Shown in pieces: positions 161-20,659 of a stretch of 22,431 bases of DNA; the stretch's first letter is position 1; every line of letters starts with the position of its first letter. Below the pieces are notes generated by a model. It was given only the letters and a program-made list of their open reading frames with translations. It did no database searches and had not been told where the DNA came from. Origin of the DNA: a bacterium (lineage in GTDB: Bacteria > JAHJDO01); assembly GCA_030652805.1 (NCBI GenBank), contig JAUSPT010000038.1:1-22431 (forward strand). Direction: 5' to 3'. A program made the translations under genes and the position numbers.

Positions 161-1333
161 ATGAGAACCATTACCTGCAATTTAAATACAATGAAAAAAA
201 TCAACAGGTTGAGAATAATGAATCTGTTGAATACAGAAGGTCCTCTGTCGCGGATAGAGCTTACAAAAAAGTCAAAATTGGACGGAAAGACTGTTACAAG
301 CCTAACTAAAGAACTTATTGGGGAAAATCTTATAAGTTCTATTGGTTATAAATCTTCAACTGGAGGTAGATGTCCTGAATTACTTAATATCAATGCAAAT
401 GCAAGACAGTGTATAGGGCTTTACATGGATGGGGAAAAGATTTTAGCAATCCTATCTAATTTAAAAGGCAATATATTGATAAAAAGACAATTTCCCCTAA
501 AGGTAGGAGCCTCAAGAAAAACAGTTATTGATGTATTTGAAAAATCTATACTGTCACTTACTGAACAGGCAGAACATTCAAAGCTACTGGGTATAGGAAT
601 AGCAGTTCAGGGTATAATGGATGCAAAGATGGAGACAGTGATACAATCTGCTTTATTCCCATCCATGGAGGGAATGAACCTGAAGAAAATATTGCGAAAG
701 ATATATTCTGCGCCAGTTGAGATTGAAGATTCTGCCAGATCCAAGGCTTTGGCAGAGAAGTGGTTTGGAGCTGCTAAAAAAATAGATAACTTCATTCTTC
801 TTGATATGGGCCTGGGGATAGGCTGTGCTATCTTTGCGGAAGGGCACATTCATTATGGTGAAAATATGAGTTCAGGAGAACTAGGACATACAATAATAGA
901 CGAGAGAGGCACTTTGTGTCGTTGCGGGCATAGAGGATGTCTTGAAACTGTTGCATCATTAGAGGTTCTCGAGAGAAGAATAAAAAAAGAATTGGGTTTA
1001 AAAAGCACAAATCTTGGGGAAATTATAGAGCTGTTAAATAAAGAGAATGCTACTGCAAAGGATATTGTTTGTGAAGTAGGCCATTATATAGGATTAAGTA
1101 TAAGCAATGTAGTAAATGTAATACACCCATCTCACATAATTCTTGATGGTTTACTAACTAGGCTTGGGAATATATTTTTTAATTCTATAGATGAGACTCT
1201 CAAACATTATACAATGCCTAGCTTTTACAATAATCTAAAACTTGTTCCAGCAAAACTGGGCGATGAAGGAGCGTCCTTGGGTGCTACTACGCTCCTGTTG
1301 CGAAAAATATTTGAAATGGAAGAACTGATGTGA
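161..1333 (+). CDS. ROK-family transcriptional regulator
   Basis: This 390-residue protein has the full layout of ROK repressors (NagC/XylR type). An N-terminal winged helix-turn-helix covers about residues 12-60, with the pattern GPLSRIELTKKSKLDGKTVT. An actin-like sugar-binding domain follows, with a glycine-rich phosphate loop (DMGLGIG, 215-221), GELGH at 239-243 and the ROK zinc site CRCGHRGC at 253-260. The usual kinase pair Asn-Asp is Glu189-Asp190, which favours sensing over sugar phosphorylation. The upstream ribosome site is weak. An in-frame ATG at 191 is an alternative start, and the HTH is intact from either. It is the first gene after a consensus promoter and lies 35 bp before the next gene, so it probably regulates itself and the array in response to a sugar or sugar-like ligand. 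Confidence 0.9.
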   Translation: MRTITCNLNTMKKINRLRIMNLLNTEGPLSRIELTKKSKLDGKTVTSLTKELIGENLISSIGYKSSTGGRCPELLNINANARQCIGLYMDGEKILAILSNLKGNILIKRQFPLKVGASRKTVIDVFEKSILSLTEQAEHSKLLGIGIAVQGIMDAKMETVIQSALFPSMEGMNLKKILRKIYSAPVEIEDSARSKALAEKWFGAAKKIDNFILLDMGLGIGCAIFAEGHIHYGENMSSGELGHTIIDERGTLCRCGHRGCLETVASLEVLERRIKKELGLKSTNLGEIIELLNKENATAKDIVCEVGHYIGLSISNVVNVIHPSHIILDGLLTRLGNIFFNSIDETLKHYTMPSFYNNLKLVPAKLGDEGASLGATTLLLRKIFEMEELM

Positions 1334-1368
1334 TTTTGTAGGAAGAAAAAAAGGAAAGGAGAAGTATT

Positions 1369-2337
1369 ATGGATCTGAGTCAGAGAATCAAGCGCTATCG
1401 TGAGGCGGCCGTCAAAGCCGTCGAGTTCACGATCAGGTACCAGCTGTCTGACGGTGGATACATCTGGGATGGGTATGTCAAGAACGCCTACCACAAGCAG
1501 GTTTACTCATGGCCGCTGGCCGGTCGTTTCAGTGAGACACAGCGACTCCTGGACTGGGTCAAGAAGAACACGCTGCAATCCGACGGGCAACTGAAGGATT
1601 ACCTCGGGGACGTCTACAAACTTGCATGGCTGGTTCACGGAGCCCAGCGGTTGGGACGGTTCGATGTTTCCTATCCGCTCGGATCATTTCTCTTCTCCTA
1701 CCAGGCGCCCTGTGGTGGCTTTCCGCGGTACACTGCCGACAAGTTGATCCGGTCGGTGTCCACGGCCTGGATGGGGATAACGGCGCTCAGTTTTGGTAAG
1801 CTTGATGTGGCGGAAAAGACCGCGCAGTGCTGTATCAGCATGCTGGAGCAACAGCCTGATAAGAACAGGTTCTACTGCCAGATGACCGGGGACGGCAAGC
1901 TGGTTACCGAGAAGGAGGATCCAAAGGCACTGATAGTCGATATCGCCAAGCCCAAGCAGAACTACTATGAGCTGGGACTTCCCATGATGCTCATGTGCCG
2001 GTTGTATCAGGCGACAGGGAAGACATCGTGGCTGGATTACGCGAAGCCGTTCTTCGAGTTTAATCTGCGTTGCTACGACGACAAGTTCGCTTTCGTCTTC
2101 AGTGGAAAGACCGCCTTTGCCGCGGCGATCTATTACTCCATTACCGGCGACGAGAGGGCAAGAGATGCTGCGTATCAGTTCTGCGACTTCCTCGTGGAGA
2201 CACAACTTCCAGATGGCAGTTGGCGTGATGAGATCAGTGATCCGGATGAACTTCTCTACTATGTTGACCACGCTGCCGAGTTCTGCGTGTGGCTACTGGA
2301 GATCGCGGCGATCATGGAGAGTAAAGAGAGAATATAA
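1369..2337 (+). CDS. Alpha/alpha-toroid (terpene-cyclase/prenyltransferase-like) protein, G+C-rich
   Basis: The 322-residue protein has no signal peptide and is built of paired helices separated by short Gly/aromatic turns: DGGY (28-31), CGGFPRY (115-121) and DGSW (282-285). Such repeats mark the alpha/alpha-toroid superfamily (squalene-cyclase-like, prenyltransferase-like and some glycan-active enzymes). I do not recognise a specific family or catalytic set, so no reaction is proposed. A ribosome site of host style, AGGAAAGGAGA at 1352-1362, precedes the ATG. The coding region is clearly richer in G+C (by eye well above 50%) and favours C/G at third positions, unlike every neighbour, which suggests recent transfer into the array. 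A 195-codon antisense frame is a side effect of this composition. Confidence 0.8.
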   Translation: MDLSQRIKRYREAAVKAVEFTIRYQLSDGGYIWDGYVKNAYHKQVYSWPLAGRFSETQRLLDWVKKNTLQSDGQLKDYLGDVYKLAWLVHGAQRLGRFDVSYPLGSFLFSYQAPCGGFPRYTADKLIRSVSTAWMGITALSFGKLDVAEKTAQCCISMLEQQPDKNRFYCQMTGDGKLVTEKEDPKALIVDIAKPKQNYYELGLPMMLMCRLYQATGKTSWLDYAKPFFEFNLRCYDDKFAFVFSGKTAFAAAIYYSITGDERARDAAYQFCDFLVETQLPDGSWRDEISDPDELLYYVDHAAEFCVWLLEIAAIMESKERI

Positions 2338-2372: not shown

Positions 2373-3752
2373 ATGAGAGATGAAAAGTTTACAGGAGAAC
2401 AAATTAAACAATTGAAAGAAGATGCTTTGCGCTATATATGCCCGCATTCCGCTAAGAATGACGAACTGCTTGTAAATGGTCCTAAAATATTTGTAAAGGG
2501 AGAGGGCTGTTATATCTATGATGTGGAGGGCAAGAAATATCTTGATACATTCGCAACCCTGGTTACATCGATATGCGGACATGATCGTCCGGAGGTAAGA
2601 GAGGCAGTATATGAACAAATGAAGAAGCTGGAGTTTTTCCCCAATTATGTGGATAGCTTTACATTACCTCTTATCAAGCTGGCAAAGAAACTAGAAGAAA
2701 TTACACCTGGAGACCTTTCAGTCTCTTTCTTTGTTAACAGCGGTTCAGAGGCTAATGAAACAGCTATAAAGATAGCCAAGCAATACCAACTACAGATTGG
2801 ACAACCTAGTAAGTGGAAAATTATTGCAAGAAGATTCTCCTATCATGGGACAACCTTAGGCGCTGCATCAGCTACAGGTATACCTTCGTATAAGAAATAT
2901 CTTGAGCCGTTGATGCCTGGATTTATATTTGCAAAGGCCGCTCGCGACTGCGAGTGTCCGGAAGGTATGGGTTCGAAAGAATACGGAAAAGTCTGCCTTA
3001 AGGAGTTAGATGATTTAATGCAATTTGAAACACCGGAGACAATCGCAGGTATGATAATGGATCCTGTGCCCGGATCGAATACAGCATATCCGATTCCTCC
3101 TGAAGGATATCTTCAAGGCGTAAGGGAACTCTGTAATAAATATGGAATAGTACTGATATTTGACGAGGTTCAGACAGGATTTGCTAAAACGGGAAAAATG
3201 TTCGCATGTGAACACTGGGATGTAACCCCTGATATTATAACTCTTGGCAAGAGCTTAGCAGGCGGGTTTGCTCCTTTGGGCGCCGCTGTAATGACAGAGA
3301 AAATATATAAGGTATTTAAGAGAGTTGGACATGAATTGAAAAGCGGAAGCACATTTGGCGGTCATACGGTTTCGTGTGCAGCAGCCTTGGCTAATATAGA
3401 TATAATTGAAAAAGAGAATCTCGTAGCAAAAGCTGTCAAAATGGGGAAATATTTAAAGGGAGAACTGGAGAAATTGTATAAGTATCCTATTGTAGGCGAT
3501 GTTTGCGGAATAGGAATGCTTCTAGCGGTAAAGCTGGTATCTGATAGAAAGACAAAAAAACCTCTGGACCAAAAACTCAAAGTAGGTAAATGGATAAGGG
3601 AACGCTGCTGGCAGCTTGGAATGATACTTCGCAACAACGGAGATATTATTGTAATTGCCCCACCTCTTATTCTATCTAAGGATGAAGCAGATGAGATGCT
3701 TAAAAAGATGGAGCAGGCAATCTCTGATGCAATGAAACACTTTGGCTTATGA
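2373..3752 (+). CDS. Class III (omega-) aminotransferase, PLP-dependent
   Basis: The 459-residue protein carries the class III aminotransferase signature: GSEA at 124-127, the PLP-stacking YHG at 157-159, IFDEVQTGFAKTG with PLP-binding Asp264, and Lys293 in TLGKSLAGG as the Schiff-base lysine. A Cys-rich insert around 193-208 and the C-terminal APPL segment resemble the omega-amino acid/taurine/beta-alanine:pyruvate branch more than ornithine or acetylornithine aminotransferases. The donor amine cannot be fixed from sequence. GGAGG lies about 7 bases upstream of the start. The stop codon overlaps the ATG of the 25-codon mttB remnant (ATGA), then comes an SDR gene. It probably interconverts a primary amine and an aldehyde or ketone in the pathway encoded by the array. 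Confidence 0.9.
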   Translation: MRDEKFTGEQIKQLKEDALRYICPHSAKNDELLVNGPKIFVKGEGCYIYDVEGKKYLDTFATLVTSICGHDRPEVREAVYEQMKKLEFFPNYVDSFTLPLIKLAKKLEEITPGDLSVSFFVNSGSEANETAIKIAKQYQLQIGQPSKWKIIARRFSYHGTTLGAASATGIPSYKKYLEPLMPGFIFAKAARDCECPEGMGSKEYGKVCLKELDDLMQFETPETIAGMIMDPVPGSNTAYPIPPEGYLQGVRELCNKYGIVLIFDEVQTGFAKTGKMFACEHWDVTPDIITLGKSLAGGFAPLGAAVMTEKIYKVFKRVGHELKSGSTFGGHTVSCAAALANIDIIEKENLVAKAVKMGKYLKGELEKLYKYPIVGDVCGIGMLLAVKLVSDRKTKKPLDQKLKVGKWIRERCWQLGMILRNNGDIIVIAPPLILSKDEADEMLKKMEQAISDAMKHFGL

Positions 3753-3828: not shown

Positions 3829-4590
3829 ATGGTAAATTTGGAAAACAAGATTGCGATTGTTACTGGAGCAGCACGTGGAATTGGACGCGGATGTGCACTG
3901 GAAATGGCAAAAGCTGGCGCAGATATTGTTGTGACGGACTGTGCATATCCAGAAGAATCACAAGAAGTAGCAGAGCTTGTTCAAAAGATAGGGCGCAAAG
4001 CAATTGTTGTCCCACTGGATGTTGCAGATAGGCAGGAAGTTAAGGATATGGTGCAAGCAGTGCGAGAAAAATTTGGCAAGATTAACATTCTTGTCAATAA
4101 TGCTGCAGCAAGTGTTCACAAGCCGTTTTTGGAGATATCTGTTGAAGATATGGCGCACGTCTTGAATGTCAGTCTCTGGGGTGTGTTCCATTGCAGTCAG
4201 CTGATTGCATCTGTCATGGTCGAACAGGGTCAGGGTGGAAAAATTATTATTATTAGTTCACTTCATGCTTCCATCCCGAAAATAAACTCATTGGCTTACA
4301 ATACGGCGAAAGCCGCCATCAATCAGATGGGCTATACAATGGCAGCGGAACTAGCACAATACCATATCAACGTTAATGTAATCGAACCAGGATCTACGGA
4401 CACGCCGGGAGAACGCGCATTCTATACAGAGGAAGAGATAAAAAAAGAGGGGGAAGAGTTACCATGGGGACGATTAGCTACAATCGAAGACATCGGCAAA
4501 GCTACGGCTTTTCTCGCTTCTGACGCCGCCGATTACATCACTGGTGCATGTCTGCGTGTAGACGGAGGATTTTGGTTGCCATGGAGGTGA
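3829..4590 (+). CDS. Short-chain dehydrogenase/reductase (SDR), classical type
   Basis: The 253-residue length and motifs are those of a classical NAD(P)-dependent SDR: cofactor loop TGAARGIG at 12-19, NNAA at 90-93 and the catalytic tetrad Asn113, Ser144, Tyr157, Lys161 (YNTAK). The C-terminus ends in the usual VDGG segment. An acidic Asp37 after the second strand (VVTD) suggests a preference for NAD over NADP. FabG-like, sugar or polyol dehydrogenases all share this pattern, so the substrate is unknown. The ribosome site AAAAAGGA lies within the remnant just upstream. Codon use is slightly richer in G+C than the flanking genes. In this array it likely oxidises or reduces an alcohol/ketone intermediate. 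Confidence 0.9.
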   Translation: MVNLENKIAIVTGAARGIGRGCALEMAKAGADIVVTDCAYPEESQEVAELVQKIGRKAIVVPLDVADRQEVKDMVQAVREKFGKINILVNNAAASVHKPFLEISVEDMAHVLNVSLWGVFHCSQLIASVMVEQGQGGKIIIISSLHASIPKINSLAYNTAKAAINQMGYTMAAELAQYHINVNVIEPGSTDTPGERAFYTEEEIKKEGEELPWGRLATIEDIGKATAFLASDAADYITGACLRVDGGFWLPWR

Positions 4591-4657
4591 AAAAATCAAA
4601 AGCTACTATTACTAGGAGACCCACAATATAAGCAAATGTTAGAGTAATGAATAAAAC

Positions 4658-4666
4658 AAGGGAGGG
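4658..4666 (+). promoter_or_regulatory. Ribosome binding site deciding the mttB start
   Basis: AAGGGAGGG lies 7 bases before the ATG at 4674. It falls inside the frame that would begin at the upstream ATG 4647, which has no ribosome site of its own, so 4674 is the preferred start. Confidence 0.8.
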
Positions 4667-4673
4667 TTGTAAA

Positions 4674-6161
4674 ATGTTAAGCATAACAAAAAAAGAAGAA
4701 CTCAGGGACAAGGTGTGTAGCATGCTCAGTAATGTAGGTATGAAAGTTGATTGCGAAGAAATGAAAAAGATTTTGCTTGGTAATGGGTGTTCTGAAGCTC
4801 CAAACAGCCGCCTAAAAATTCCAGAAGAATTAATTAAAGAGTTTTCCACTTCTCAAGAAAAAAAATCAGATAAAGAGGATGAAAAAGAATTCCTTGAAAT
4901 GACTCTGGAGTTTGGTGCTGCATATACCAAGTTTCTTCTTTGGAGTGGTAGAAAAGATGTGGTGAAAAAGAAATTAGAATCAGAATTTATAACAAATATT
5001 TTTGATGATGGTCCAACCAAGCTTTATGATTACAAGGAACATAAAGAGGTTCCAGTAAATACAGAGATATTGACTAATATGATGAAGTTAGCCCATGCAA
5101 TTCCTGAAGTAGGATATGTTCCAGCCTGGTACCGTCAGGATGTGCCTCAGGAAACAGAAAGAATATCATCATTGATCGAAGCCTTAAAACTTACGGATAA
5201 AGTAGGAGGAGTTGAGTCAATTTCTATTGGACAGGTAAAGTATCTGATAGAAATTGGTGATATTATGGGAGAAAATCCAAAAGGATGTCCATATCTTCAC
5301 GGCTCACAGTGTATGACTTCTCCTTTAATGCTTGAGGCAAGATCTGCAGATGAAATGATTGAGAGAAAAAATAGAGGGGTGGGAAGATATTATGTTGCTT
5401 CCATGATAACTCTTGGGGTTTCTACACCAGTGTCGCTATCAGATTCAATCATTTTGGGAGCAGCTGAAATTCTTGGGGGAATGATAGCTGCATATTGTTT
5501 AGATCCTGAGGCAGAAATTACAGGCAGAATGATTACATCTGTCCTTGATATGAAAACTGCAAATGCAACCATGTGCAGACCAGAAGGAGCCATTGTGAAT
5601 GCAGGTGTTAGGGAATTATTTGATGATTTCTTTGGCTCTCAGATAAGAACAACCCCGGATTACATGACTACTGCAAAGGTTCCCGGACTTCAGGCAGTAT
5701 ACGAAAACTTTTTTTCTGGAAGTGCTTTTAGTAAAGTTATGAACTTGAATGAGGCTTTTTATCCTGGCGTTGGAGTATTAAACATTGCAGGAGCAGGGTC
5801 TCCAACACAGGCAATTATGGATATTGAAATAAAAAAATCTCAATATTTTCTTAGAAAGCAATGTGAGATTAATGATAGTTCTATGGATTTTAAGGAATTC
5901 TGTGAGGGCATATCTAATGGTAAGGAGTTTCTAAACAGCGATTATACGCTAAACCACTTTAGAGACATATGGTCTCCTTCCATATTTATAAGCGGGAATG
6001 CAGAATCAGGAGATGAAAAGAGTATTCTTGATAGATGTGATGAAGTATGGAGAGGTCATCTTAAAAATTACAAATCTCGAGAATTACCCGAGGAGAAAAG
6101 AAAGGCATTGGATGATCTATTAGCTAGAGCAGAAAAAGAATTATTGCGGAAGGAGGAATAA
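4674..6161 (+). CDS. MttB-family (trimethylamine methyltransferase-like) protein, non-pyrrolysine
   Basis: At 495 residues this matches the size and sequence style of the MttB superfamily (COG5598), TIM-barrel enzymes that move a methyl group from a quaternary or tertiary amine to a corrinoid protein. The central barrel shows CPYLHGSQCMTSPL around 205-218 and AGAGSPTQA at 372-380. There is no in-frame TAG, so it belongs to the non-pyrrolysine group, whose studied members act on betaine-type compounds such as glycine betaine, proline betaine and carnitine. No B12-binding corrinoid partner is encoded nearby, which is unusual. URO-D-type proteins further downstream could accept the methyl group. 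An in-frame ATG at 4647 would add nine residues but lacks a ribosome site. The substrate is unknown. Confidence 0.85.
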   Translation: MLSITKKEELRDKVCSMLSNVGMKVDCEEMKKILLGNGCSEAPNSRLKIPEELIKEFSTSQEKKSDKEDEKEFLEMTLEFGAAYTKFLLWSGRKDVVKKKLESEFITNIFDDGPTKLYDYKEHKEVPVNTEILTNMMKLAHAIPEVGYVPAWYRQDVPQETERISSLIEALKLTDKVGGVESISIGQVKYLIEIGDIMGENPKGCPYLHGSQCMTSPLMLEARSADEMIERKNRGVGRYYVASMITLGVSTPVSLSDSIILGAAEILGGMIAAYCLDPEAEITGRMITSVLDMKTANATMCRPEGAIVNAGVRELFDDFFGSQIRTTPDYMTTAKVPGLQAVYENFFSGSAFSKVMNLNEAFYPGVGVLNIAGAGSPTQAIMDIEIKKSQYFLRKQCEINDSSMDFKEFCEGISNGKEFLNSDYTLNHFRDIWSPSIFISGNAESGDEKSILDRCDEVWRGHLKNYKSRELPEEKRKALDDLLARAEKELLRKEE

Positions 6162-6165
6162 TATA

Positions 6166-7116
6166 ATGGACGGGGAAAAATTAACTAAACTACTTGATTT
6201 AATGTACAGGATACGTTTCTTTGAAGAGAGAACAATGGTGCTTTTTCGGGAGGGTTTAATAGTCGGTGCTCTTCACCATTATATAGGTGAGGAAGCAATC
6301 GCTGCAGGAGCTTGTGCTGCAGCGGAAAAACACGATTATGTTGTAAGCACTCATCGTGGACATGGACACTGCATTGCCAAAGGAGCTGACTTGAAGCGTA
6401 TGATGGCTGAGCTCATGGGCAGGGAAACAGGCTACAGCAGAGCACGAGGCGGGTCCATGCATATCTTCAGCGTAGAGGAAGGATTGTTGGGAGGAAACGG
6501 CATTGTAGGTGGTGGTCTTCCTATAGCTCTTGGTTCTGCACTTTCAGGTCAATACAGAGAATCAGGACAGGTGACTCTCTGTTTCTTTGCTGAGGGAGCA
6601 GGTGCGCGAGGAACATTTCATGAATCCTTGAACCTGGCTGCCTTGTGGAAGCTTCCTGTTGTATATATATGCGAAAATAATCTCTGGGCAGCTACTACCT
6701 ATATAAATTACAGCTTACCAATAGAGAATATCGGAGACAGAGCTTCCGCTTATGGAATACCTGGGAAGGTAATAGATGGAAACGATGTAGAGGAAGTTTA
6801 TAAGACTGTGGATGAGGCGATAAAGAGAGCAAGAGAAGGCAATGGTCCTACTTTAATAGAGTGTAAGACATACAGGCATTATCCGCACTGTATGGTGATA
6901 CCTGATACAAGGCCGCAGGATGAGGTTATGGAGTGGAAAAAGAAAGATCCTATTCCGCGTTTTGAGAAAAGGCTTCTGGAAGAAAAAGTAATAACAAAGA
7001 CTGAAATGGGAAAGATTAAGAAAAAAGTCAAGAACATGCTGGATGAGGCAGAAGAATTTGCAAGAAAGAGTCCTCTGCCAGCTGTAGAGACAGTTGAAGA
7101 AGGACTGTGGGCATAA
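6166..7116 (+). CDS. 2-oxoacid dehydrogenase-type E1 alpha subunit (PDH/acetoin dehydrogenase family)
   Basis: This 316-residue protein is collinear with ThDP-dependent E1 alpha subunits of pyruvate, branched-chain 2-oxoacid and acetoin dehydrogenases: the HRGHGH block at 63-68, the loop ARGGSMH at 93-99, and the ThDP site at 142-172 ending ENN. The first part of that site, normally GDG, is AEG (142-144), so the metal-binding Asp is Glu143. This may still bind magnesium but is uncommon. The start follows a strong AAGGAGGA site. It is paired with the E1 beta gene 17 bp downstream. No lipoyl E2 or E3 gene is in the window, so it either borrows them or performs a non-oxidative ThDP reaction. Confidence 0.9.
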   Translation: MDGEKLTKLLDLMYRIRFFEERTMVLFREGLIVGALHHYIGEEAIAAGACAAAEKHDYVVSTHRGHGHCIAKGADLKRMMAELMGRETGYSRARGGSMHIFSVEEGLLGGNGIVGGGLPIALGSALSGQYRESGQVTLCFFAEGAGARGTFHESLNLAALWKLPVVYICENNLWAATTYINYSLPIENIGDRASAYGIPGKVIDGNDVEEVYKTVDEAIKRAREGNGPTLIECKTYRHYPHCMVIPDTRPQDEVMEWKKKDPIPRFEKRLLEEKVITKTEMGKIKKKVKNMLDEAEEFARKSPLPAVETVEEGLWA

Positions 7117-7124
7117 AAGGAGGT
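7117..7124 (+). promoter_or_regulatory. Ribosome binding site deciding the E1 beta start
   Basis: AAGGAGGT is a perfect Shine-Dalgarno sequence 9 bases before the ATG at 7134. The same frame is open back to a GTG at 7107 inside the E1 alpha gene, but that start would run through this site and is unlikely. Confidence 0.85.
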
Positions 7125-7133
7125 ATTTGTAAT

Positions 7134-8102
7134 ATGAGAGAATTAACATATCTTGGTGCTTTAAATGAAGCTTTAAGAGAGGAAATGGAAAGAGATGAGA
7201 ATGTTTTCCTCATAGGGGAAGATATAGGTTCGTTTGGTGGCGTTTTTGGAGTGGAAAAAGGACTCTGGGAAAAGTTTGGTGAAAAAAGAGTAAGGCAAAC
7301 TCCCATATCAGAGGATGCAATAGTGGGAACTGCGGTTGGTGCTGCAATGACAGGGCTGAGACCTGTAGCAGAAATAATGTACATAGATTTTATAACATGC
7401 TGTATGGATCAGGTAGTAAATCAGGCGGCAAAACTCCGTTATATGTCAGGCGGTAAGATAAAAATGCCTTTGGTTATACGAGCGCAGGGTGGAAGTGGTA
7501 CTGCAGAAGCAGCGCAGCATTCACAAAGTCTGGAAGCGTGGTTTGTGCATACTCCAGGGCTTAAAGTAGTAATGCCTGCTACAGTATATGATGCAAAAGG
7601 ACTTCTAAAAACAGCAATCAGGGATGATAATCCAGTAATATTTTTAGAGCACAGAATGCTTTACAATATAAAAGATAATGTTCCGGAAGGAGAGTGGACA
7701 GTGCCGTTTGGTAAGGCAGAGGTAAAACATGAGGGAAAAGACATTACCATTGTCGCCACATCCCTTATGGTCCATAAGGCATTGGAAGCGGCAAAAGAGC
7801 TTGCTGATAGCATCAGTATAGAGGTTATTGATCCAAGAACATTGGTCCCGCTTGATATAGATACAATTCTGAAGTCAGTAAAAAAGACCTCTAAATTACT
7901 TGTTGTTCATGAAGCTCCTACAATAGCAGGAGTTGGTGCAGAAATAGTAAGACAGGTTGTAGAAAATGCATTTGATTATCTTGACGGAGCACCGCGTGTT
8001 CTCGGTGGTAGAAGTATTCCAATGCCTTACGCGCCAATACTGGAGAAAGCATGCACACCTCAAAAAGAGGGTATAGTCAAACTCATAAAAGAAATGATGT
8101 GA
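7134..8102 (+). CDS. 2-oxoacid dehydrogenase-type E1 beta subunit (PDH/acetoin dehydrogenase family)
   Basis: The 322-residue protein is a normal-length E1 beta subunit: GEDIGSFGGVFG at 28-39, ThDP-activating Glu60 in TPISE, the IDF block at 84-86, AQGG at 117-120 and His129 in QHSQSLE, followed by the transketolase C-terminal domain (IDPRTLVPLD). It should form an alpha2beta2 heterotetramer with the product of the preceding gene. Acetoin, pyruvate or branched-chain specificity cannot be settled by eye, although acetoin-type E1 beta subunits look similar. The next gene starts only 4 bases after the stop. Confidence 0.92.
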   Translation: MRELTYLGALNEALREEMERDENVFLIGEDIGSFGGVFGVEKGLWEKFGEKRVRQTPISEDAIVGTAVGAAMTGLRPVAEIMYIDFITCCMDQVVNQAAKLRYMSGGKIKMPLVIRAQGGSGTAEAAQHSQSLEAWFVHTPGLKVVMPATVYDAKGLLKTAIRDDNPVIFLEHRMLYNIKDNVPEGEWTVPFGKAEVKHEGKDITIVATSLMVHKALEAAKELADSISIEVIDPRTLVPLDIDTILKSVKKTSKLLVVHEAPTIAGVGAEIVRQVVENAFDYLDGAPRVLGGRSIPMPYAPILEKACTPQKEGIVKLIKEMM

Positions 8103-8106: not shown

Positions 8107-8670
8107 ATGAAAATCTGTGCATTTCTTGGCAGTCCTAGAAAAAAGGGAAATACTGCCCGTGTATTAAATTGGATCTTGGAAGAGGCGAAAAATAATGGAC
8201 ATAAAATAGAGCTGGTATATCTTCAAGACCAGAAGATATCCGGTTGTAGAGAGTGTTTTGCTTGTCAGAAAATAGTTGACAGACCGGGATGTTCTATTAA
8301 AGATGACATGCAGAGACTATATCCAAAGATTTTAGAAGCGGATTGTATTTTGATTGCTACTCCTGTTTTTACGTGGTCTGTTTCTGCCCTGACAAAAGCA
8401 TTTCTTGAACGAACATATTGTTTTGAGAAATTTTCTGAGGACGGTAGTTATATTTCCTTTGTGGAAGGCAAGAGATGCGGGCTTGTAGTAACAGCAGCTG
8501 GAGATGAATTTGAGGGAGCAGATTTAGTAGTTGAAAGCTACAAACGAATGGTTGAGTTTCACAGGATGAAAAATATCGGGCACCTTGTGGTCGCCAATAT
8601 TCAGACAGAAAAAGATCTCGCAAAATCCGATATTAAGCAAAGAGCGAGACAATTTGGGAAAAGGCTGTGA
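8107..8670 (+). CDS. Flavodoxin-fold NAD(P)H-dependent reductase / iron-sulfur flavoprotein-like
   Basis: The 187-residue protein begins with the FMN-phosphate loop GSPRKKGNT (8-16) and has the conserved TPVFTWSVSALTKAFLER segment of the flavodoxin-like reductase family. Four cysteines, C47-x2-C50-x2-C53-x8-C62, resemble the [4Fe-4S] motif of iron-sulfur flavoproteins (known ones are more compact after the third Cys) and are common in anaerobe members, so a cluster is possible but not proven. It probably moves electrons between NAD(P)H or ferredoxin and a pathway enzyme. It could help reactivate a corrinoid cofactor, a job that MttB systems need, but that link is speculation from context. Translation is likely coupled to the E1 beta gene. 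Confidence 0.85.
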   Translation: MKICAFLGSPRKKGNTARVLNWILEEAKNNGHKIELVYLQDQKISGCRECFACQKIVDRPGCSIKDDMQRLYPKILEADCILIATPVFTWSVSALTKAFLERTYCFEKFSEDGSYISFVEGKRCGLVVTAAGDEFEGADLVVESYKRMVEFHRMKNIGHLVVANIQTEKDLAKSDIKQRARQFGKRL

Positions 8671-9756: not shown

Positions 9757-9766
9757 TATGGAAGAG

Positions 9767-9773
9767 AGAGGAG
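9767..9773 (+). promoter_or_regulatory. Ribosome binding site deciding the Gfo/Idh/MocA start
   Basis: AGAGGAG lies 6 bases before the ATG at 9780. The frame is open back to an ATG at 9753 that overlaps the previous stop, but that would add nine charged residues ahead of the Rossmann strand, so 9780 is preferred. Confidence 0.75.
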
Positions 9774-9779
9774 AAAGTT

Positions 9780-13631: not shown

Positions 13632-14863
13632 CATCAAGAGAAAGAGTAAAAAAAGTATTGAATTTTGAGGTGCCTGACAGGCCTGCTATTGATCTTGGGT
13701 CAACAAGAATGACAGGTATTTCCGCATGGATATACAGAGAGCTAAAGAGACGACTAGGAATAAAATCTGATGAAGTTAAAGTATTTGATTTAAGCCAGAT
13801 GCTTGCAGAAGTTGAGTTACAAGTTCTTGATAGATTAAGGTGCGATTTTGTTATGTTGCCAATGCAGAGCCTAAAATTTGAATTAAAATATGGTGATTGG
13901 AAAGATTACACATTCTGGGATGGACAAACATTTAAAGTTCCAAGTGAATTTAACCCAAGGGTTACAGAAGAGGGTACTTTACTTATAGGAGATACTCCCA
14001 ATTGGAAAAAAGAAACTCGCCGTATGCCCAAAGGATGCAGGTATCTTGATAGAATAGAATATCCTGACATTAAGACAGTAGATTTTGACATATCTCATAT
14101 AGACAAAAAGGACTGGGTGTTTTCAAAACCTCTTTCAGGCGAATTTTTAAAAACAGAAGAAAATAATGCTAAAATATTAAAACAATCAACTGATAAGGCT
14201 ATTGTGTCTTCAGGGGGAATATCGGGAGCATGGGGAATGCCAGCAGGATATGGAGGAGTTATAGGATGGGGAATAAAGATGGCTCTTGACCCAAATCATG
14301 CAAAAGAATATATGATGGCAGAAGCAGAAGCATTGTCCAAGCGTATAAAGTTATATTTAGAAGCAGTAGGTAATTATATTGATATTATAGTTGTAAGTGG
14401 TACTGATTTCGGAGCACAAAAAAAGGAACAATTTAATCCTGAATTATTTAAAGAATTCTTCGTGCCTGCATGGAAAATAGTAACAGATACAATACATAAA
14501 TTTGATGATATAAAAATATTTATTCATTCATGCGGATGTGTGAAGGATCTCATCCCCTACTTTATTGATGCAGGTGTTGATATTTATAACCCGGTTCAGT
14601 GGTCTGCGGATAATATGGATCGAGAGGAGCTTAAAAAAGAGTTTGGGAACAAGATAGTATTCTGGGGCGGAGCAGTCAATACGCAAAAAACATTTCCTTT
14701 TGGTACACCTGATGAAGTGAGAAAAGAAGTGAGAGAAACTATTAATATACTCGGCAGAGATGGAGGCTATGTGGTAAATCCAGTACATAACATACAGGCA
14801 GATGTACCAGTTGAAAATATAATTGCATTGTATGAGACTGCAAAGAATTATAGATATGGTTAA
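13628..14863 (+). CDS. URO-D family protein 1 (methylcobamide methyltransferase-like), HxC site intact
   Basis: The 411-residue protein begins MTSRERVKKVLNFEVPDRP, the standard opening of URO-D-fold (PF01208) proteins outside haem synthesis. It keeps the zinc motif of MtaA/MtbA/CmuA-type methyltransferases, His300-x-Cys302 in IHSCGC, plus VHNIQADVP near the end (386-394). Enzymes of this type transfer methyl groups between a corrinoid and a thiol. With the MttB-like gene in the array, a corrinoid-linked methyl transfer is the best guess. A true haem-pathway HemE is unlikely because the PDRPA segment is not the HemE N-terminus. ATG overlaps the previous stop. Confidence 0.87.
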   Translation: MTSRERVKKVLNFEVPDRPAIDLGSTRMTGISAWIYRELKRRLGIKSDEVKVFDLSQMLAEVELQVLDRLRCDFVMLPMQSLKFELKYGDWKDYTFWDGQTFKVPSEFNPRVTEEGTLLIGDTPNWKKETRRMPKGCRYLDRIEYPDIKTVDFDISHIDKKDWVFSKPLSGEFLKTEENNAKILKQSTDKAIVSSGGISGAWGMPAGYGGVIGWGIKMALDPNHAKEYMMAEAEALSKRIKLYLEAVGNYIDIIVVSGTDFGAQKKEQFNPELFKEFFVPAWKIVTDTIHKFDDIKIFIHSCGCVKDLIPYFIDAGVDIYNPVQWSADNMDREELKKEFGNKIVFWGGAVNTQKTFPFGTPDEVRKEVRETINILGRDGGYVVNPVHNIQADVPVENIIALYETAKNYRYG

Positions 14864-14883: not shown

Positions 14884-15708
14884 ATGAATTCTGACAAGAT
14901 TGAAGATTATAAAAAACTGGCTACTCAAATCAGAGTTGATGTTCTTAAGATGATCTATAAGGCAAAAAGCGCTCATATAGGCGCTTCTTTCTCAATGGCA
15001 GACATACTTGCAGTACTCTACGGAGGCATCATGAAGGTAAACCCATCCGATCCCAAATGGGAAGATCGTGATAGATATATCCAGAGCAAGGGACATGCAG
15101 CAGCAGGTCTTTATGCAGTGCTTGCAGAAAAAGGGTTTTTCCCAAGGGATTGGCTGGAAACCTATTATCAGGATGGAGGACATCTTATGGGGCATGTATG
15201 GCACAAAGTCCCTGGAGTAGATGTATCCAGTGGTGCTTTAGGTCATGGACTTTCCATGGCATGCGGAATGGCGATTAATGGAAAATATAAGAAGAAACAA
15301 TATCGGGTTTTTGTTATGCTCAGTGACGGAGAATGTGATGAAGGTTCGGTATGGGAAGCAATTATGTTTGCTCCGCAGCATAAACTTGATAATCTTGTTG
15401 CTATAGTTGATTATAACAAACTTCAGGCGCTTGGCACAGTGAAGGATGTTCTTGATTTAGCTCCTCTTGCAGACAAATGGAGAGCGTTCAACTGGTCAGT
15501 AAAAGAAGTGGACGGACATAATTATAAAGAAATTGATGACGCATTATCAAGTGCTCCTTTTGAACAGGGAAAGCCAAGCTGCATTATAGCTAATACAGTA
15601 AAAGGAAAGGGTGTAAGTTATATGGAAAATAAAGTAGAGTGGCATTATAAAAGTCCGGATGAAGAGCAGTTAAAACAAGCTTTTTCAGAATTGGGGGTGA
15701 CGGAATGA
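14884..15708 (+). CDS. Transketolase, N-terminal half
   Basis: The 274-residue protein is the pyrophosphate-binding half of a split transketolase, common in anaerobes and archaea. It shows KSAHIGASFSMADIL (28-42), the SKGH motif (68-71), GHG at 120-122, and the ThDP/metal site SDGE (147-150) through Asn178. AGGAG lies upstream of the start, and its stop overlaps the ATG of the C half (ATGA), giving stoichiometric synthesis. It presumably transfers a two-carbon ketol unit, in central pentose metabolism or on a pathway-specific sugar. Its position between URO-D genes argues for a dedicated role. Confidence 0.92.
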   Translation: MNSDKIEDYKKLATQIRVDVLKMIYKAKSAHIGASFSMADILAVLYGGIMKVNPSDPKWEDRDRYIQSKGHAAAGLYAVLAEKGFFPRDWLETYYQDGGHLMGHVWHKVPGVDVSSGALGHGLSMACGMAINGKYKKKQYRVFVMLSDGECDEGSVWEAIMFAPQHKLDNLVAIVDYNKLQALGTVKDVLDLAPLADKWRAFNWSVKEVDGHNYKEIDDALSSAPFEQGKPSCIIANTVKGKGVSYMENKVEWHYKSPDEEQLKQAFSELGVTE

Positions 15709-16634
15709 GACCTGCATTTAATAAAACACTTGTTGAATTAGCAAGAGAGGATGAACGCATATTTCTGGTACTGGCAGATATTGGATTCAACGCAGTCGAA
15801 CCGTTTGCAAACGAATTCCCTGACAGATTTTTTAACGTTGGTGTAGCCGAGCAGGATATGACAGGTATAGCGTGCGGATTGGCTCTGGAAGGCAATATTG
15901 CTTTTACTTATACAATAGGAAATTTTGTGAGTATTAGATGTCTTGAACAGGTGCGCAATGATGTATGTTATCACAATGTAAATGTCAAAATTATAGCAAT
16001 AGGCGGCGGTGTTGCCTATGGAGCACTGGGCTCCTCTCATCATTGTGAACAGGATCTGGCGATTATGAGGTCATTGCCAAACTTAATAGTTCTCTCTCCT
16101 GGAGATGCTGTTGAAACAAGACTTCTAACGCGTGCAATAGCAGCACATAACGGGCCATGCTACATGAGAGTCGGAAGGGGTAAAGAACTTGTAGTTCATA
16201 AAAGTGACCCGGACCTAGAGATTGGTAAAGCAATTACTATGCGAGAGGGAAACGACTTAACATTAATTTCAACAGGAGATATGCTGCCCTATGTTATGGA
16301 TGCTTCTGAGTCCTTAGAACAAAACAGAATTAATGCACGTGTCTTAAGTATGCATACAATTAAACCTTTAGATAAGGAAGCCATAATATCTGCTGCACGC
16401 CAGACAGGCGCTATTATAACAATAGAGGAACACAATATACTGGGTGGCTTGGGGGGCGCAGTGGCAGAAATTCTGGTTGAATCAGATTGTCATAAAGTCC
16501 CTTTCAAAAGGATGGGTTTAAATGATGCATTCTGCAAGAAAATTGGTTGCCAGAAATACCTGAGGAAGGAATATGGCTTATCAGTTGAGGATATTGTAAA
16601 TACAGCAACATCAGTTACTGGTAAAAAACAATAA
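15705..16634 (+). CDS. Transketolase, C-terminal half
   Basis: The 309-residue protein contains the pyrimidine-binding domain with the catalytic Glu49 in NVGVAEQDM (44-52), the SHH-containing loop following GGGVAYGALGSS, and the C-terminal transketolase domain (SMHTIKPLD, IEEHNILGGLGGAVAEIL). It complements the product of the gene it overlaps, so the two halves make one enzyme. It is distinct from the E1 beta subunit earlier in the array, which shares the fold. The next gene begins 12 bp downstream after AAGGAGAGAGGA. Confidence 0.92.
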   Translation: MRPAFNKTLVELAREDERIFLVLADIGFNAVEPFANEFPDRFFNVGVAEQDMTGIACGLALEGNIAFTYTIGNFVSIRCLEQVRNDVCYHNVNVKIIAIGGGVAYGALGSSHHCEQDLAIMRSLPNLIVLSPGDAVETRLLTRAIAAHNGPCYMRVGRGKELVVHKSDPDLEIGKAITMREGNDLTLISTGDMLPYVMDASESLEQNRINARVLSMHTIKPLDKEAIISAARQTGAIITIEEHNILGGLGGAVAEILVESDCHKVPFKRMGLNDAFCKKIGCQKYLRKEYGLSVEDIVNTATSVTGKKQ

Positions 16635-16646: not shown

Positions 16647-17681
16647 ATGGCATATTCAGGGGTTCTGGAAGATATAAAAATATGTGTTGATCTAGGTATT
16701 CCAAAAAAAGTCCCGATTTTTGCTCTGGCAGAACTTTTTAATGTGCGAATGGCTGGAATGACCTATGAAGAGTATACCTACAATGTTGATAAGCTCGTTA
16801 AGTGCGAAGTAGAAGCTGTAAAACGATTTGATTATGATTGGGTCTATCTTAATCCGGATGATAATATGGAATTCGAGCCCCTTGGAATAAAGACAAAGGG
16901 AGAGGAAAATGTTCCCTTAGGTGCATATGAATTTTTACCTGCTTCATGGGATACACTTAAAACTTTAAAGCTCCCTGATTTCCAGCGCGATGGAAGAATG
17001 CCGGCTTTTCTTGAGGCAATAAGCAGGATTAAAGAAGAGTTAAAAGATACCATTTGTCTTTGCGGCCGGGTAGCTGCTCCATTCAGTTCAGTAGCATTAT
17101 TATATGGAGTAGAGAAGGCGTTGATGCTTCTCTTTGAGGACTCCGAATTGTTTAAAAAAACGGCAGATTTCTTTTTGGAACTTATGAGTGAATGGGGAAA
17201 AGCCCAAATTCAGGCCGGAGCAGATGCTATCTGGGTGGGAGATTGTGTTGCTTCCTCTGGTTTTATATCTCCAAAACATTATTCTGCATTTGCTGCTGAA
17301 GGAGCATTAAAATTAAATAGAGCGTTAAAAAAAGAGGGAGCCGTCATTTTCTATCACGCTGGTGAATCATCTCTCCCGCATCTTGAATTAATGGCTGATA
17401 CGTATCCGGATGCTCTTAGTATAGGCGGAGGGATAGATATTAGGGAGGCTAAAGAGACCGTAGGCAAAAGAGTCTGCCTGCTTGGCAATATTCACGGCAT
17501 CAAGACATTACAACGAGGCAGTTCTGAATATGTAGAAAAAGAGACCATAAGAATTATGGAAAGCGGCAAGAAAAATGGCGGTTATATATTTAATTCTGAA
17601 GAAGGTATTGCTTATCAAACGCCGGAGCAAAATATAAGAATAATGATGCAGACTGCTAAAAAATATGGTAGTTATAAATAG
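16647..17681 (+). CDS. URO-D family protein 2, altered metal site (HAGE)
   Basis: A 344-residue URO-D-fold protein recognisable by CLCGRVAAPFSSVALLYGVEKAL, the GADAIWVGD strand (191-199) and the C-terminal SIGGGIDIREAKETVGKRV segment. At the place of the HxC zinc motif it reads YHAGE (236-240), so His237 is kept but the ligand cysteine is Gly239. It lacks the MTSRERV opening seen in the other two copies. It either uses a different ligand or does not bind zinc, so methyl transfer by the MtaA mechanism is doubtful. It sits between transketolase and URO-D protein 3. Confidence 0.85.
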   Translation: MAYSGVLEDIKICVDLGIPKKVPIFALAELFNVRMAGMTYEEYTYNVDKLVKCEVEAVKRFDYDWVYLNPDDNMEFEPLGIKTKGEENVPLGAYEFLPASWDTLKTLKLPDFQRDGRMPAFLEAISRIKEELKDTICLCGRVAAPFSSVALLYGVEKALMLLFEDSELFKKTADFFLELMSEWGKAQIQAGADAIWVGDCVASSGFISPKHYSAFAAEGALKLNRALKKEGAVIFYHAGESSLPHLELMADTYPDALSIGGGIDIREAKETVGKRVCLLGNIHGIKTLQRGSSEYVEKETIRIMESGKKNGGYIFNSEEGIAYQTPEQNIRIMMQTAKKYGSYK

Positions 17682-17694
17682 AAAGGATTTCATT

Positions 17695-18732
17695 ATGACC
17701 TCAAGAGAACGAGTTTTTGCCGCATTAGAAGGTAGAACGCCTGACAGAGTACCTATAATGGAACTGGTTGTGGATCAAAAGGTCATACAGGCAATTCATC
17801 CTGGCATCTCATACTATGATTTTATTGAAGAAATAGGTTTTGATGTTGTATGTGTAGGCATGAGTACAGATACCGATAAGATAGAATGGATTGATAAAAA
17901 TAAAAAAATATTCAAAGGTAAATGGGGAGAGACAAGAGCCTTCACAACAGAAGTTAAGGCTGTTCCTATTCCTCCATATCCCATACAAGCAGAACAAGAC
18001 CTAAAATCATATACACCTCCTGATCCCAATGATCCTGACGCGTTGGGTGATCTTAGGGAAGTTGTTAAGAGATTCAAGGACAAAAAAGCTATTGCATGGG
18101 TTGGAGGAGGTGTGTTTGCTCCGCAGCAGTATCTAAGGGGAGTAGAAGATTTACTTATGGATTATGTATTGAATCCTCAATTGGTTAAGAAGCTCGCAAA
18201 AATTGGAGAAGAATATTATATTGAATTACACAGAAGGGTCATAAAAGAAGGAGTGGATATTGTAATTCTTGGAGATGATTATGCCGGTAAAACAGGGCCT
18301 ATGATGTCTCCGGCGCATTTTGAAAGTTTTATACTACCGGGATTGACTGCCATTGTTAAAGGAATAAAAAAAGCAGGAGCTTATTGTATTAAACACACAG
18401 ACGGAGATATATGGAAAATCATTGATATGATTATCAAAACGGGTGTTGATGCTATTGGTCCGGTAGAGATCGGTGCTGGAATGGAGCTTGACAAGATTAA
18501 GGAAAAGTATGATATTTGTGTAGTTGGTAATGTGGATATAGATCTTCTTTCGCGTGGAACGGTTGAAGAAGTTGTTGAGGCGACAAAAGAGTGCATCAAA
18601 AAAGGAGCCTCTCGGGGAGGACATATTCTTTCGTCTGCTAATAGTATTATTTCTGCAGTTAATCCTGCTAATTTTTTGGCAATGGTTAATACAGCTAAGG
18701 AGTTCGGTAAATATCCAATGGAAGAACAATGA
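17695..18732 (+). CDS. URO-D family protein 3, altered metal site (HTDGD)
   Basis: From the ATG at 17695 (GAAAGGA at 17681-17687) the product is 345 residues and opens MTSRERVFAALEGRTPDRVP, as in copy 1. An ATG at 17665 would overlap the previous gene and add ten residues, and is less likely. The zinc-motif position reads KHTDGD (233-238): His234 is kept and the cysteine is Asp236. Many uncharacterised URO-D-like proteins of anaerobes share this His-x-Asp form. It may bind a different metal or a small substrate in place of a thiol-zinc. The stop overlaps the next gene's ATG. Confidence 0.87.
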   Translation: MTSRERVFAALEGRTPDRVPIMELVVDQKVIQAIHPGISYYDFIEEIGFDVVCVGMSTDTDKIEWIDKNKKIFKGKWGETRAFTTEVKAVPIPPYPIQAEQDLKSYTPPDPNDPDALGDLREVVKRFKDKKAIAWVGGGVFAPQQYLRGVEDLLMDYVLNPQLVKKLAKIGEEYYIELHRRVIKEGVDIVILGDDYAGKTGPMMSPAHFESFILPGLTAIVKGIKKAGAYCIKHTDGDIWKIIDMIIKTGVDAIGPVEIGAGMELDKIKEKYDICVVGNVDIDLLSRGTVEEVVEATKECIKKGASRGGHILSSANSIISAVNPANFLAMVNTAKEFGKYPMEEQ

Positions 18733-19985
18733 ATATATTGCTAATCATGCCTGATGCTCTAAGGGCCACCAACCTCAGCTGTTGTGGTTATTCTAAAAAC
18801 ACCTCTCCGTTTATGGATAAACTGGCAAAAGAGGGCGTTGTGTTTAAAAACGCAATTGCTCAAACTGCGCATACTCATCCAGGCGTCGTTTCCATTTATA
18901 CAGGACTCTATCCCGCCACCCATTGTCAACAAACTCCCGATGACTATGCTGAATTTGCAAAAACAGGCTGGAATAATGAGTGGAAAGCTCCTCTTAATAT
19001 ACTTAAAGAACATGGTTATACAACAGGCGGGAAACATGCTGATTCATGGTGGCCTCTGGGATACCTGATAGAAACAAAAGTGGATAAGATTTTCAATAAA
19101 CTTATAGAGGATTATACAAACAGACCATTTTTTATGATGTGTATGCCGTATTACACCCATATTGCATATAACGCTGTGCCTGATTATGACAAACTGTTCT
19201 TATCTGAGGGTAATAAACTTACTGATAACTTTAGAAAATACATGGATATAATAAAGACGACAGGACATGGATATGTATTAAATCCAGAATTTGTTGGTAA
19301 AAAATATCAGGATGCAAAAACAGCTAGTGCATGGAAGGTATTTACCTTATCCGAGGAAGACAGACCATCTATAGTGGCTCTGTACGACGGAGCAGTAAGA
19401 AACCTGGATATGGAAATAGAAAGATACGTAAAAAAGCTGGAGGAATTAGGCATCTTAGATGATACATTAATTATCATAACTTCAGACCACGGAGAAGAAA
19501 TATTGGAAAGAGGATCATTAGGACATGCCTCCTGTTCAATGGCAGGAACCCTGTATGACGAAAACATAAGAATTCCTCTTATCATGAGATATCCAAAGGC
19601 ATTGCCGCAGGGCAGGGTAATAGAAACTCAGGTAAGTCAGGTGGATATAATGCCTACAATATTTGATATATTAGGTTATTCTATGCCTGAACTTACGGAA
19701 GGCCATTCACTCCTGCCGCTTATCAGAGGAAAAGACATTGATTTTGAAGAAGAGACACATTGCGAAACATTGGTTTGCGGTATGCAGACTCTGGATTGGG
19801 ATAAAAGAATGAAGTGGGCCCTCAGAACACCGCAGTGGAAGCTTATATACAGTCAGGATCCAAAGAGCAATTATTACGAACTGTATAATCTAAAAAATGA
19901 CCCAGAAGAGAAAGTAAATCTTATTGACAAAGAACCAAAAATCGCAGACGAATTAAAAAAGAAACTCAGGAAAAGGAGAGTCTAA
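18729..19985 (+). CDS. Alkaline-phosphatase-superfamily (sulfatase-fold) hydrolase with Thr nucleophile position
   Basis: The 418-residue protein has the sulfatase-family layout: a first metal Asp (Asp9 in MPDALR), TGLYP (58-62), DHGEE (253-257) with metal-ligand Asp253/His254, and the YELYNLKNDPEEKVNL C-terminal module. The formylglycine motif Cys/Ser-x-Pro-x-Arg reads Thr-His-Pro-Gly-Val (49-53), so the residue that must be converted to formylglycine is Thr and the stabilising Arg is lost. Other members of the superfamily, such as phosphoethanolamine/phosphoglycerol transferases and phosphomutases, use Thr or Ser directly on phosphate esters. A phosphodiesterase, phosphatase or transferase is more likely than a sulfatase. 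No signal peptide or membrane segment is seen. ATGA overlap with URO-D protein 3. Confidence 0.85.
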   Translation: MNILLIMPDALRATNLSCCGYSKNTSPFMDKLAKEGVVFKNAIAQTAHTHPGVVSIYTGLYPATHCQQTPDDYAEFAKTGWNNEWKAPLNILKEHGYTTGGKHADSWWPLGYLIETKVDKIFNKLIEDYTNRPFFMMCMPYYTHIAYNAVPDYDKLFLSEGNKLTDNFRKYMDIIKTTGHGYVLNPEFVGKKYQDAKTASAWKVFTLSEEDRPSIVALYDGAVRNLDMEIERYVKKLEELGILDDTLIIITSDHGEEILERGSLGHASCSMAGTLYDENIRIPLIMRYPKALPQGRVIETQVSQVDIMPTIFDILGYSMPELTEGHSLLPLIRGKDIDFEEETHCETLVCGMQTLDWDKRMKWALRTPQWKLIYSQDPKSNYYELYNLKNDPEEKVNLIDKEPKIADELKKKLRKRRV

Positions 19986-19987
19986 AC

Positions 19988-20659
19988 ATGAAAGCAAAAG
20001 TCTATGAATGTCTTTATATCAATGAGAAAATGAAGATCGATGGTATTCTTAATGAGAAAGCATGGCAAAAAGCTAAAATACTGGATTTCTACATACCTGT
20101 CACACATAAAAAACCAATAAGTAAAACAGAGGCTAGACTGCTCTGGGACGATAAGTATTTATATGTAGGATTTAAAGCCTATGATAAGGATATATGGGGA
20201 TATTTTAAAGATAGAGACGACCCAACATGCAGAGAGGATGTTTTAGAAGTTTTCCTTAAGACGGATTTTAAAAAAGAGCCGTATTATAATTTTGAGATTA
20301 ACGCTTTAGGCACTGTCTACGATGCATTCAACATAAAAAGAAATGCTGCAGGTTCAGATCACAGATGGAAAAAGTGGAACTGCAAAGGACTAAAAGTTGG
20401 AATAAAAATCAAAGGGACTTTAAATAACTGCGAAGACGTAGACGAATACTGGCAGATGGAAGTAGCTATTCCATTTGCAAGCTTATCAACACTGAAAGAA
20501 AAAACTCCAAAAAATAAAGACCAATGGCTATTTCATTTAGCCCGTTACGATTATTCCGTATATCTTCCCAAAGGAGTAGAGCTGAGTTCATGCTCTAAGT
20601 TATCAGAGGTTAATTTTCATAAATACGAAGACTGGATGAACTTGAAATTCGTAAGATAG
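19988..20659 (+). CDS. Carbohydrate-binding family 9-like (CBM9-type) protein, leaderless
   Basis: The 223-residue protein matches the CBM9-like fold: IDGILNEKAWQKA (20-32), LLWDDKYLYVGF (51-62) and DVLEVFL, followed by the EYWQMEVAIPFASL segment typical of this domain in outer-membrane and glycan-degradation proteins. Here it stands alone and lacks a signal peptide, so it would act in the cytoplasm. Catalytic activity is not expected. A scaffold or ligand-binding role is possible. AAAGGAGAG lies about 9 bases upstream of the start. It is the last gene before a terminator-like hairpin, and so the probable end of the transcript. Confidence 0.8.
   Translation: MKAKVYECLYINEKMKIDGILNEKAWQKAKILDFYIPVTHKKPISKTEARLLWDDKYLYVGFKAYDKDIWGYFKDRDDPTCREDVLEVFLKTDFKKEPYYNFEINALGTVYDAFNIKRNAAGSDHRWKKWNCKGLKVGIKIKGTLNNCEDVDEYWQMEVAIPFASLSTLKEKTPKNKDQWLFHLARYDYSVYLPKGVELSSCSKLSEVNFHKYEDWMNLKFVR

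Follow-up and report, generated by a model that had tools for sequence, protein, structure and literature searches.

A patchily shared 20-gene bacterial array of methyl-transfer, amine and sugar-type enzyme families, possibly a catabolic operon for a methylated amino-sugar-like compound

The closest described systems are the type 1 mlp gene clusters (MGC; Kountz and Balskus, PMC10418091), the MtgB-type demethylation systems, oxidative ornithine fermentation, sugar pathways with a split transketolase and the pyruvate or acetoin dehydrogenase complexes. Among UroD-type proteins, S-methyltransferases carry a His-Cys-Cys (H-C-C) metal site, in which O-methyltransferases replace Cys by carboxylates or non-coordinating residues (PMC10418091), and the native amine dehydrogenase family performs reductive amination in vitro (PMC11164908). 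Outside methanogens and acetogens, most members of the UroD and MttB families have no known substrate. Here, we describe a stretch of bacterial DNA of 22,431 nucleotides (contig JAUSPT010000038.1 of assembly GCA_030652805.1, hereafter the window) in which 20 open reading frames (ORFs) run head to tail on the + strand from 161 to 20659, followed by a 21st at 20775-22133, and in which families of all these systems meet (Table 1). A first-pass annotation of the sequence had held this combination to be undescribed, and indeed we found no matching cluster in the open-access literature; the families are all known, while neither their combination nor its recurrence across phyla seems to have been described in the literature searched.

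We tentatively read the array as an undescribed catabolic operon, patchily shared across phyla, for the intracellular and probably anaerobic breakdown of an amino-sugar-like (or amino-polyol) compound that is methylated and N-acylated. Family searches confirmed the families named in the first-pass annotation. Its proposed substrate, a methylated amino compound, was kept but widened to amino-sugar-like, since a sugar-type ROK protein is the regulator that recurs and a carboxylate is found in two of the UroD metal sites.

Layout and recurrence of the array

Spacing across the 20 genes ranges from -17 to 81 bp, the widest gap lying between 8670 and 8752, and four ATGA overlaps (9753, 13628, 15705 and 18729) link neighbouring genes. 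A purine-rich stretch precedes most start codons, terminator-like sites on the + strand all fall within ORFs and none in the gaps (their number is at the level of shuffled sequence), and no RNA elements or tRNAs were found in the window. A perfect match to a sigma-70-type promoter lies ahead of the first gene. The head-to-tail, co-directional arrangement noticed at first pass is thus confirmed as an array and, as read from the sequence, it appears to be a single operon. The 17-bp overlap between UroD2 and UroD3 is probably a matter of start-site choice only, with the true UroD3 start at 17695, because the orthologue in G002, a genome of the same genus (G numbers denote genomes), begins at the equivalent residue.

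The promoter-like sites inside the array, which occur at about chance frequency, and the odd GC content of the toroid-like gene (0.54 against 0.40 for the window and 0.35-0.46 for its neighbours) would be compatible with a fortuitous succession of unrelated genes on one strand, or with several short operons. However, four phylum-level groups hold these families together, in reshuffled order; the array is therefore not a chance run, and we consider this explanation as a whole extremely improbable. The toroid-like gene is absent from the other arrays, which together with its GC content suggests that it is possibly a recent insertion. Its structure prediction gave an unusable model (pLDDT 46).

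Recurrence was assessed by searching about 1,300 sampled genomes with a profile of PDA, the CE4/NodB-fold deacetylase-like protein of the array. Array loci are rare (about 8); outside the genus, between 3 and 10 array families stand together in genomes of three other phylum-level groups, mostly at about 40-65% identity. The shared core consists of ROK, PDA, the class IV aminotransferase (AT4), the alkaline-phosphatase-fold protein, UroD3 and the amine dehydrogenase. According to the first-pass annotation, its reading would fall if no other genome kept more than a few of the genes together; instead, G002 keeps 16 of the 20 genes and G282 ten families within 15 genes. The G002 genes are 81-98% identical and reshuffled, with the class III aminotransferase (AT3) relocated beside the sulfatase-fold gene and an extra MttB paralogue (41%) in the place of the missing ornithine cyclodeaminase (OCD)-type gene. 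The SDR, OCD, toroid-like and ROK genes are all missing from this stretch, whose contig starts at MttB and is left-truncated. PDA was not found in the other three genomes of the genus.

The G282 locus comprises 15 consecutive + strand genes over 17.9 kb, whose identities to the window are 64% for AT4 and the amine dehydrogenase, 61% for AT3, 58% for E1 beta, 54% for PDA, 50% for E1 alpha, 48% for UroD3, 41% for the sulfatase-fold protein, 33% for ROK and 22% for MttB, and it also holds an amidohydrolase and a GHL10-type glycosidase. Four to 7 families each are kept in G097, G042, G103 and G505. G097 (Lentisphaerae GWF2_44_16), which belongs to the same phylum group as G282 and G505, has ROK, PDA, amine dehydrogenase, AT4, sulfatase-fold protein and UroD3; G103, an Omnitrophota metagenome-assembled genome, has ROK, AT4, sulfatase-fold protein, PDA, UroD3, SDR and UroD2; and G042, of another small phylum, has AT4, sulfatase-fold protein, PDA, ROK and both transketolase subunits (TktN and TktC). 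G138 gives a weaker match with array neighbours. Several of the compared contigs are short (5-15 kb), so that absences there mean little. By eye, a GH3-like gene lies beside the G097 locus.

ROK is present in every array locus save the left-truncated G002. The earlier description of the array as standing between two ligand-sensing regulators holds within the window; of the two, ROK alone is found again at the other loci. Identities of PDA and AT4 are strongly correlated (rho 0.80 over 20 non-independent pairs), and correlation is weak or absent for most other family pairs. Because gene order varies between loci and these correlations are mixed, we judge the array to be a reshuffled, patchily distributed module, as would be expected for horizontal spread.

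Single genes served less well as array markers. The amine-dehydrogenase gene was rejected, as most of its 50-64% relatives lie in unrelated neighbourhoods, and PDA alone is insufficient, as its relatives in G486 (47%) and G458 (36%) stand without other array genes in the stretch examined. By eye, amine dehydrogenase relatives in other phyla (51-69% to the window protein) adjoin D-aminoacylase, gamma-glutamyltransferase, prolidase-like or deacetylase-like genes, a further uncharacterised setting for this subfamily.

Active sites and possible methyl-transfer partners

Aligned with MtbA (4ay7; zinc site His-Cys-Cys), UroD1 reads H-C-H, UroD2 H-G-E and UroD3 H-D-N; the His-Cys-Cys site is absent from all three, and orthologues conserve the three triads. 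The H-G-E site is also found in G103, and H-D-N in G097, G103, G282 and a distant G138 protein. The array MttB matches PF06253 (91.2 bits against a threshold of 25) as well as solved MttB and glycine betaine methyltransferases, and scores far under the curated trimethylamine cut-off (129 against 525 bits).

Methyl transfer, as proposed at first pass, is partly supported by the presence of MttB and three UroD proteins, but the array lacks a corrinoid protein and its activase RACo. The host genome (G000) has three MttB homologues and just a single gene each for a corrinoid protein and RACo, these two being about 5 kb apart on another contig, C100 (258-8360 of the stretch examined). The array is therefore not a self-contained corrinoid methyltransferase operon, and identity with a type 1 MGC was rejected on the same ground and on the lack of H-C-C. 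In two genomes of the genus the sole corrinoid and sole RACo genes are separated by no more than about 5 kb, a stretch that holds two radical-SAM genes, and a flavoprotein gene adjoins them. No cognate corrinoid protein or methyl-acceptor enzyme adjoins the array MttB. The other two MttB genes of the host (on C36 and C86) adjoin UroD and carbohydrate-type genes (melibiase-like, BNR repeats, transaldolase, aldehyde dehydrogenase), also without a corrinoid protein.

One explanation of these data is a catabolic or salvage operon whose UroD and MttB homologues are not methyltransferases and work corrinoid-free, for example in decarboxylation or elimination. None of the three UroD proteins having H-C-C, the missing corrinoid gene and the MttB score all speak for it; on the other hand, a single corrinoid gene and a single RACo gene are present in the genome, and MttB and UroD are paired in two more host loci, as expected with a common corrinoid partner. 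We regard it as a serious but rather unlikely explanation. Far less plausible is a known MttB-type operon for quaternary-amine demethylation (glycine betaine, carnitine or proline betaine type) with extra genes. Its attraction is that the array MttB, which lacks pyrrolysine, is a homologue of the glycine betaine methyltransferase of solved structure, with UroD relatives present, but identity is low, no corrinoid protein or tetrahydrofolate methyltransferase partner is adjacent, and 16 other genes, most of them conserved, would be superfluous for it.

A pyruvate dehydrogenase operon was rejected as well, the array E1 pair coming without E2 or E3. The only E2 of the genome lies in a separate operon with its own E1 alpha and beta (48% and 57% identical to the array pair), so the array E1 either borrows this E2 or works without one. 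That E1 alpha-E1 beta-E2 operon (4558-7690 of the stretch on C20) stands behind what by eye resemble a DeoR-type regulator and a Zn-alcohol-dehydrogenase gene, with no adjacent E3.

Further signatures concern the amine and hydrolytic enzymes. AT4 keeps the pyridoxal phosphate (PLP) Lys, reads WMCA where branched-chain aminotransferases have YIRP (the Tyr/Arg carboxylate site), carries in all loci a VTPGxxFPxPL-like motif of its own and stays below the curated branched-chain aminotransferase cut-off (206 against 363 bits). The amine dehydrogenase, aligned with solved native amine dehydrogenases, keeps a Glu-Glu motif, which would include the catalytic Glu at P3, and is likewise below the equivalog cut-off for 2,4-diaminopentanoate dehydrogenase (296.5 against 400 bits). 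The predicted PDA model (pLDDT 79.5) is a CE4 barrel, matching 3rxz with a Z score of 23.5 and 3.1 Å over 235 residues, and also matches PuuE allantoinase and ArnD; a putative deacetylase role on an N-acyl substrate is read from this fold only.

The protein first described as sulfatase-fold does have that fold but not the sulfatase catalytic motif: H-T-x-P replaces C/S-x-P-x-R in 6/6 orthologues, with Val, Leu or Ile for Arg, and Thr at the Cys/Ser position led us to reject a formylglycine sulfatase. Thr is the nucleophile of several phosphatase-superfamily phosphoesterases. All these active-site patterns are taken as conserved signatures of predicted activities only. Curated NCBIfam cut-offs are reached only by the SDR (glucose 1-dehydrogenase subfamily) and E1 beta, both being broad subfamily scores; with scores otherwise below cut-off, substrates are not readable from family names.

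Direction and proposed pathway

We consider a catabolic direction more likely than a biosynthetic one. Hints of catabolism are the recurring ROK, the fusion of GntR with a solute-binding domain, the GH3-like and GHL10 genes beside two loci and the transketolase and E1 pairs; moreover, a family search of the array ORFs found no nucleotide-sugar, glycosyltransferase or exporter genes. Split transketolase pairs do occur in some natural-product clusters. The same chemistry could run forward and build, from central metabolites, a small molecule with amino and methyl groups (an amino-cyclitol, a modified amino acid or an osmolyte); this direction would suit the two aminotransferases, the amine dehydrogenase of a family with reductive amination in vitro (PMC11164908), the split transketolase pairs, the patchy distribution and the lack of a transporter in the array. 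Nucleotidyl-, glycosyl-, carrier-protein and exporter genes are nevertheless missing from the array, ROK recurs and glycosidase-like neighbours are found in G097 and G282, so that biosynthesis seems rather unlikely.

In the catabolic pathway that we propose, for which we infer the step order and each substrate, a sugar-type inducer would release ROK from the promoter. The acceptor of the O- or N-methyl groups moved by UroD and MttB proteins would be the single corrinoid protein, which the single RACo would keep active. PDA would take off the N-acyl group, and a phospho- or sulfo-ester would be cleaved by the Thr-type phosphatase-fold enzyme. Nitrogen would be removed by the aminotransferases, the amine dehydrogenase and the OCD-type enzyme, oxidation of the carbon chain would fall to the Gfo/MocA and SDR enzymes, and the keto product would be split by the transketolase pair and the E2-less E1 pair, so that C2 units and an aldose enter central metabolism. 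Methyl transfer is suggested by H-G-E and H-D-N sites kept across phyla, carboxylates being tied to O-methyl substrates (PMC10418091), and by the one corrinoid protein and one RACo of the genome; amine chemistry is suggested by the catalytic-Glu motif of native amine dehydrogenases and the aminotransferase Lys, both kept.

Several points weigh against this pathway. Neither a corrinoid protein nor RACo was found among the 21 window ORFs or recognised in the other arrays, the array has no transporter, and its UroD and MttB proteins could act other than by methyl transfer. The window MttB is not clearly orthologous to that of G282 (22%), the array E1 alpha and beta form a clade with those of G282 with only moderate support (82/97, 90/95), and every array gene apart from the SDR and E1 beta scores below its curated NCBIfam cut-off, none being assigned a specific substrate. 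The anaerobic life of the host is assumed.

More speculative is a cassette carried between phyla for anaerobic O-/N-demethylation of an amino-sugar-like substrate, with a corrinoid protein that is shared and acts in trans; the substrate would then be de-acylated, deaminated and cut by thiamine-dependent enzymes. This would amount to demethylating methylated carbohydrates without oxygen, and in this specific form we consider it fairly improbable. The recurrent package (UroD proteins with H-D-N or H-G-E, one AT4 subfamily, one CE4 protein and one Thr-type phosphatase-fold protein) constitutes a defined, testable system for assigning substrates to such UroD- and MttB-family proteins. If the methyl role is true, it would mean oxygenase-free removal of methyl groups from carbohydrates by anaerobes.

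Table 1. Features of the window (all on the + strand) in order of position; core genes are those shared among array loci.
Feature	Position	Strand	Remark
Predicted array promoter, TTGACA-17-TATAAT	95-123	+	12/12 consensus; consensus match, not a mapped start
ROK-family repressor, MarR-like N terminus (core)	161-1333	+	ROK gene also in G097, G042, G103, G282, G505 and G138 loci
Helical, (alpha/alpha)-repeat (toroid)-like protein, not core	1369-2337	+	Weak pectate lyase / GH127 / squalene cyclase similarity
Class III omega-type aminotransferase (AT3)	2373-3752	+	87% in G002, 61% in G282
SDR dehydrogenase, glucose 1-dehydrogenase subfamily score	3829-4590	+	Not in G002 array
Non-pyrrolysine MttB-superfamily protein	4647-6161	+	Start may be 4674, by G002 comparison
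E1 alpha, thiamine diphosphate enzyme	6166-7116	+	Array without E2/E3
E1 beta	7107-8102	+	Family match
NAD(P)H-FMN reductase / flavodoxin-fold protein	8107-8670	+	Family match
OCD / mu-crystallin family, amino-acid dehydrogenase-like	8752-9756	+	Absent from G002 array
Gfo/Idh/MocA sugar-type oxidoreductase	9753-10832	+	94% in G002
Class IV aminotransferase (AT4), own subfamily (core)	10838-11752	+	PLP Lys present; branched-chain carboxylate site altered
Native amine dehydrogenase family, 2,4-diaminopentanoate dehydrogenase-like (core)	11773-12786	+	PF19328, 145 bits
CE4/NodB-fold deacetylase-like protein (PDA), array signature (core)	12789-13631	+	Structure model
UroD-family protein 1 (UroD1), metal site H-C-H	13628-14863	+	Alignment to MtbA
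Transketolase N-terminal subunit (TktN)	14884-15708	+	61% in G042, 56% in G505
Transketolase C-terminal subunit (TktC)	15705-16634	+	55% in G042
UroD-family protein 2 (UroD2), metal site H-G-E	16647-17681	+	54% in G103
UroD-family protein 3 (UroD3), metal site H-D-N (core)	17665-18732	+	Orthologues in G097, G103, G282
Alkaline-phosphatase-superfamily (sulfatase-fold) protein, Thr at nucleophile position (core)	18729-19985	+	Six orthologues
CBM9-like domain protein	19988-20659	+	89% in G002, also last gene of the array there
Promoter-like site and perfect 9-bp inverted repeat (20723-20731 / 20742-20750)	20713-20750	+	Possible operator of GntR/solute-binding gene
GntR helix-turn-helix fused to ABC-type solute-binding domain	20775-22133	+	Not in other arrays

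Window ends and comparison with known systems

The window is one entire contig (C38) of the host genome (2.0 Mb, 95.6% complete), so its left end may be cut. The host phylum is represented in the genome set by five genomes of a single genus. Positions 1-72 are identical to 95-166 of a stretch of G002 contig C91, near the contig start, and a dispersed repeat with a terminator-like GGGGG stem at 1-72 probably broke the assembly here. A direct repeat upstream of the array was rejected as operator, being more likely a piece of a dispersed repeat. At the right end, the GntR/solute-binding gene is probably a separate transcription unit, as judged from the 115-bp gap before it, which holds a promoter-like site and a 9-bp palindrome. 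With the palindrome over its own promoter-like site, the fusion is a candidate one-protein ligand sensor.

Described systems each share a part of the array. Type 1 MGC likewise have several UroD-superfamily (MtaA-like) proteins in a co-directional cluster, whereas the corrinoid and RACo genes serving the array would be those elsewhere in the genome and its triads are H-C-H, H-G-E and H-D-N. The pyruvate and acetoin dehydrogenase complexes have the E1 alpha/beta fold, which the array genes match with fair scores, but the array has no E2 or E3 and the only E2 is elsewhere with its own E1 pair. Oxidative ornithine fermentation (2,4-diaminopentanoate dehydrogenase, G2 native amine dehydrogenases) shares the amine dehydrogenase family, yet the array protein is under the score cut-off and no ornithine aminomutase or OrtAB-like gene is found in the array. 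MtgB-type systems also use an MttB without pyrrolysine, with corrinoid protein and RACo in the genome; in contrast, the array MttB has no partner genes beside it and is set among sugar- and amine-type enzymes. Finally, split-transketolase sugar pathways (sulfosugar and apiose types; a related paper is PMC11659671) resemble the array in having TktN and TktC beside sugar-type oxidoreductases and a sugar-type regulator, while the array, without isomerase or kinase genes, adds amine and methyl enzymes to this set.

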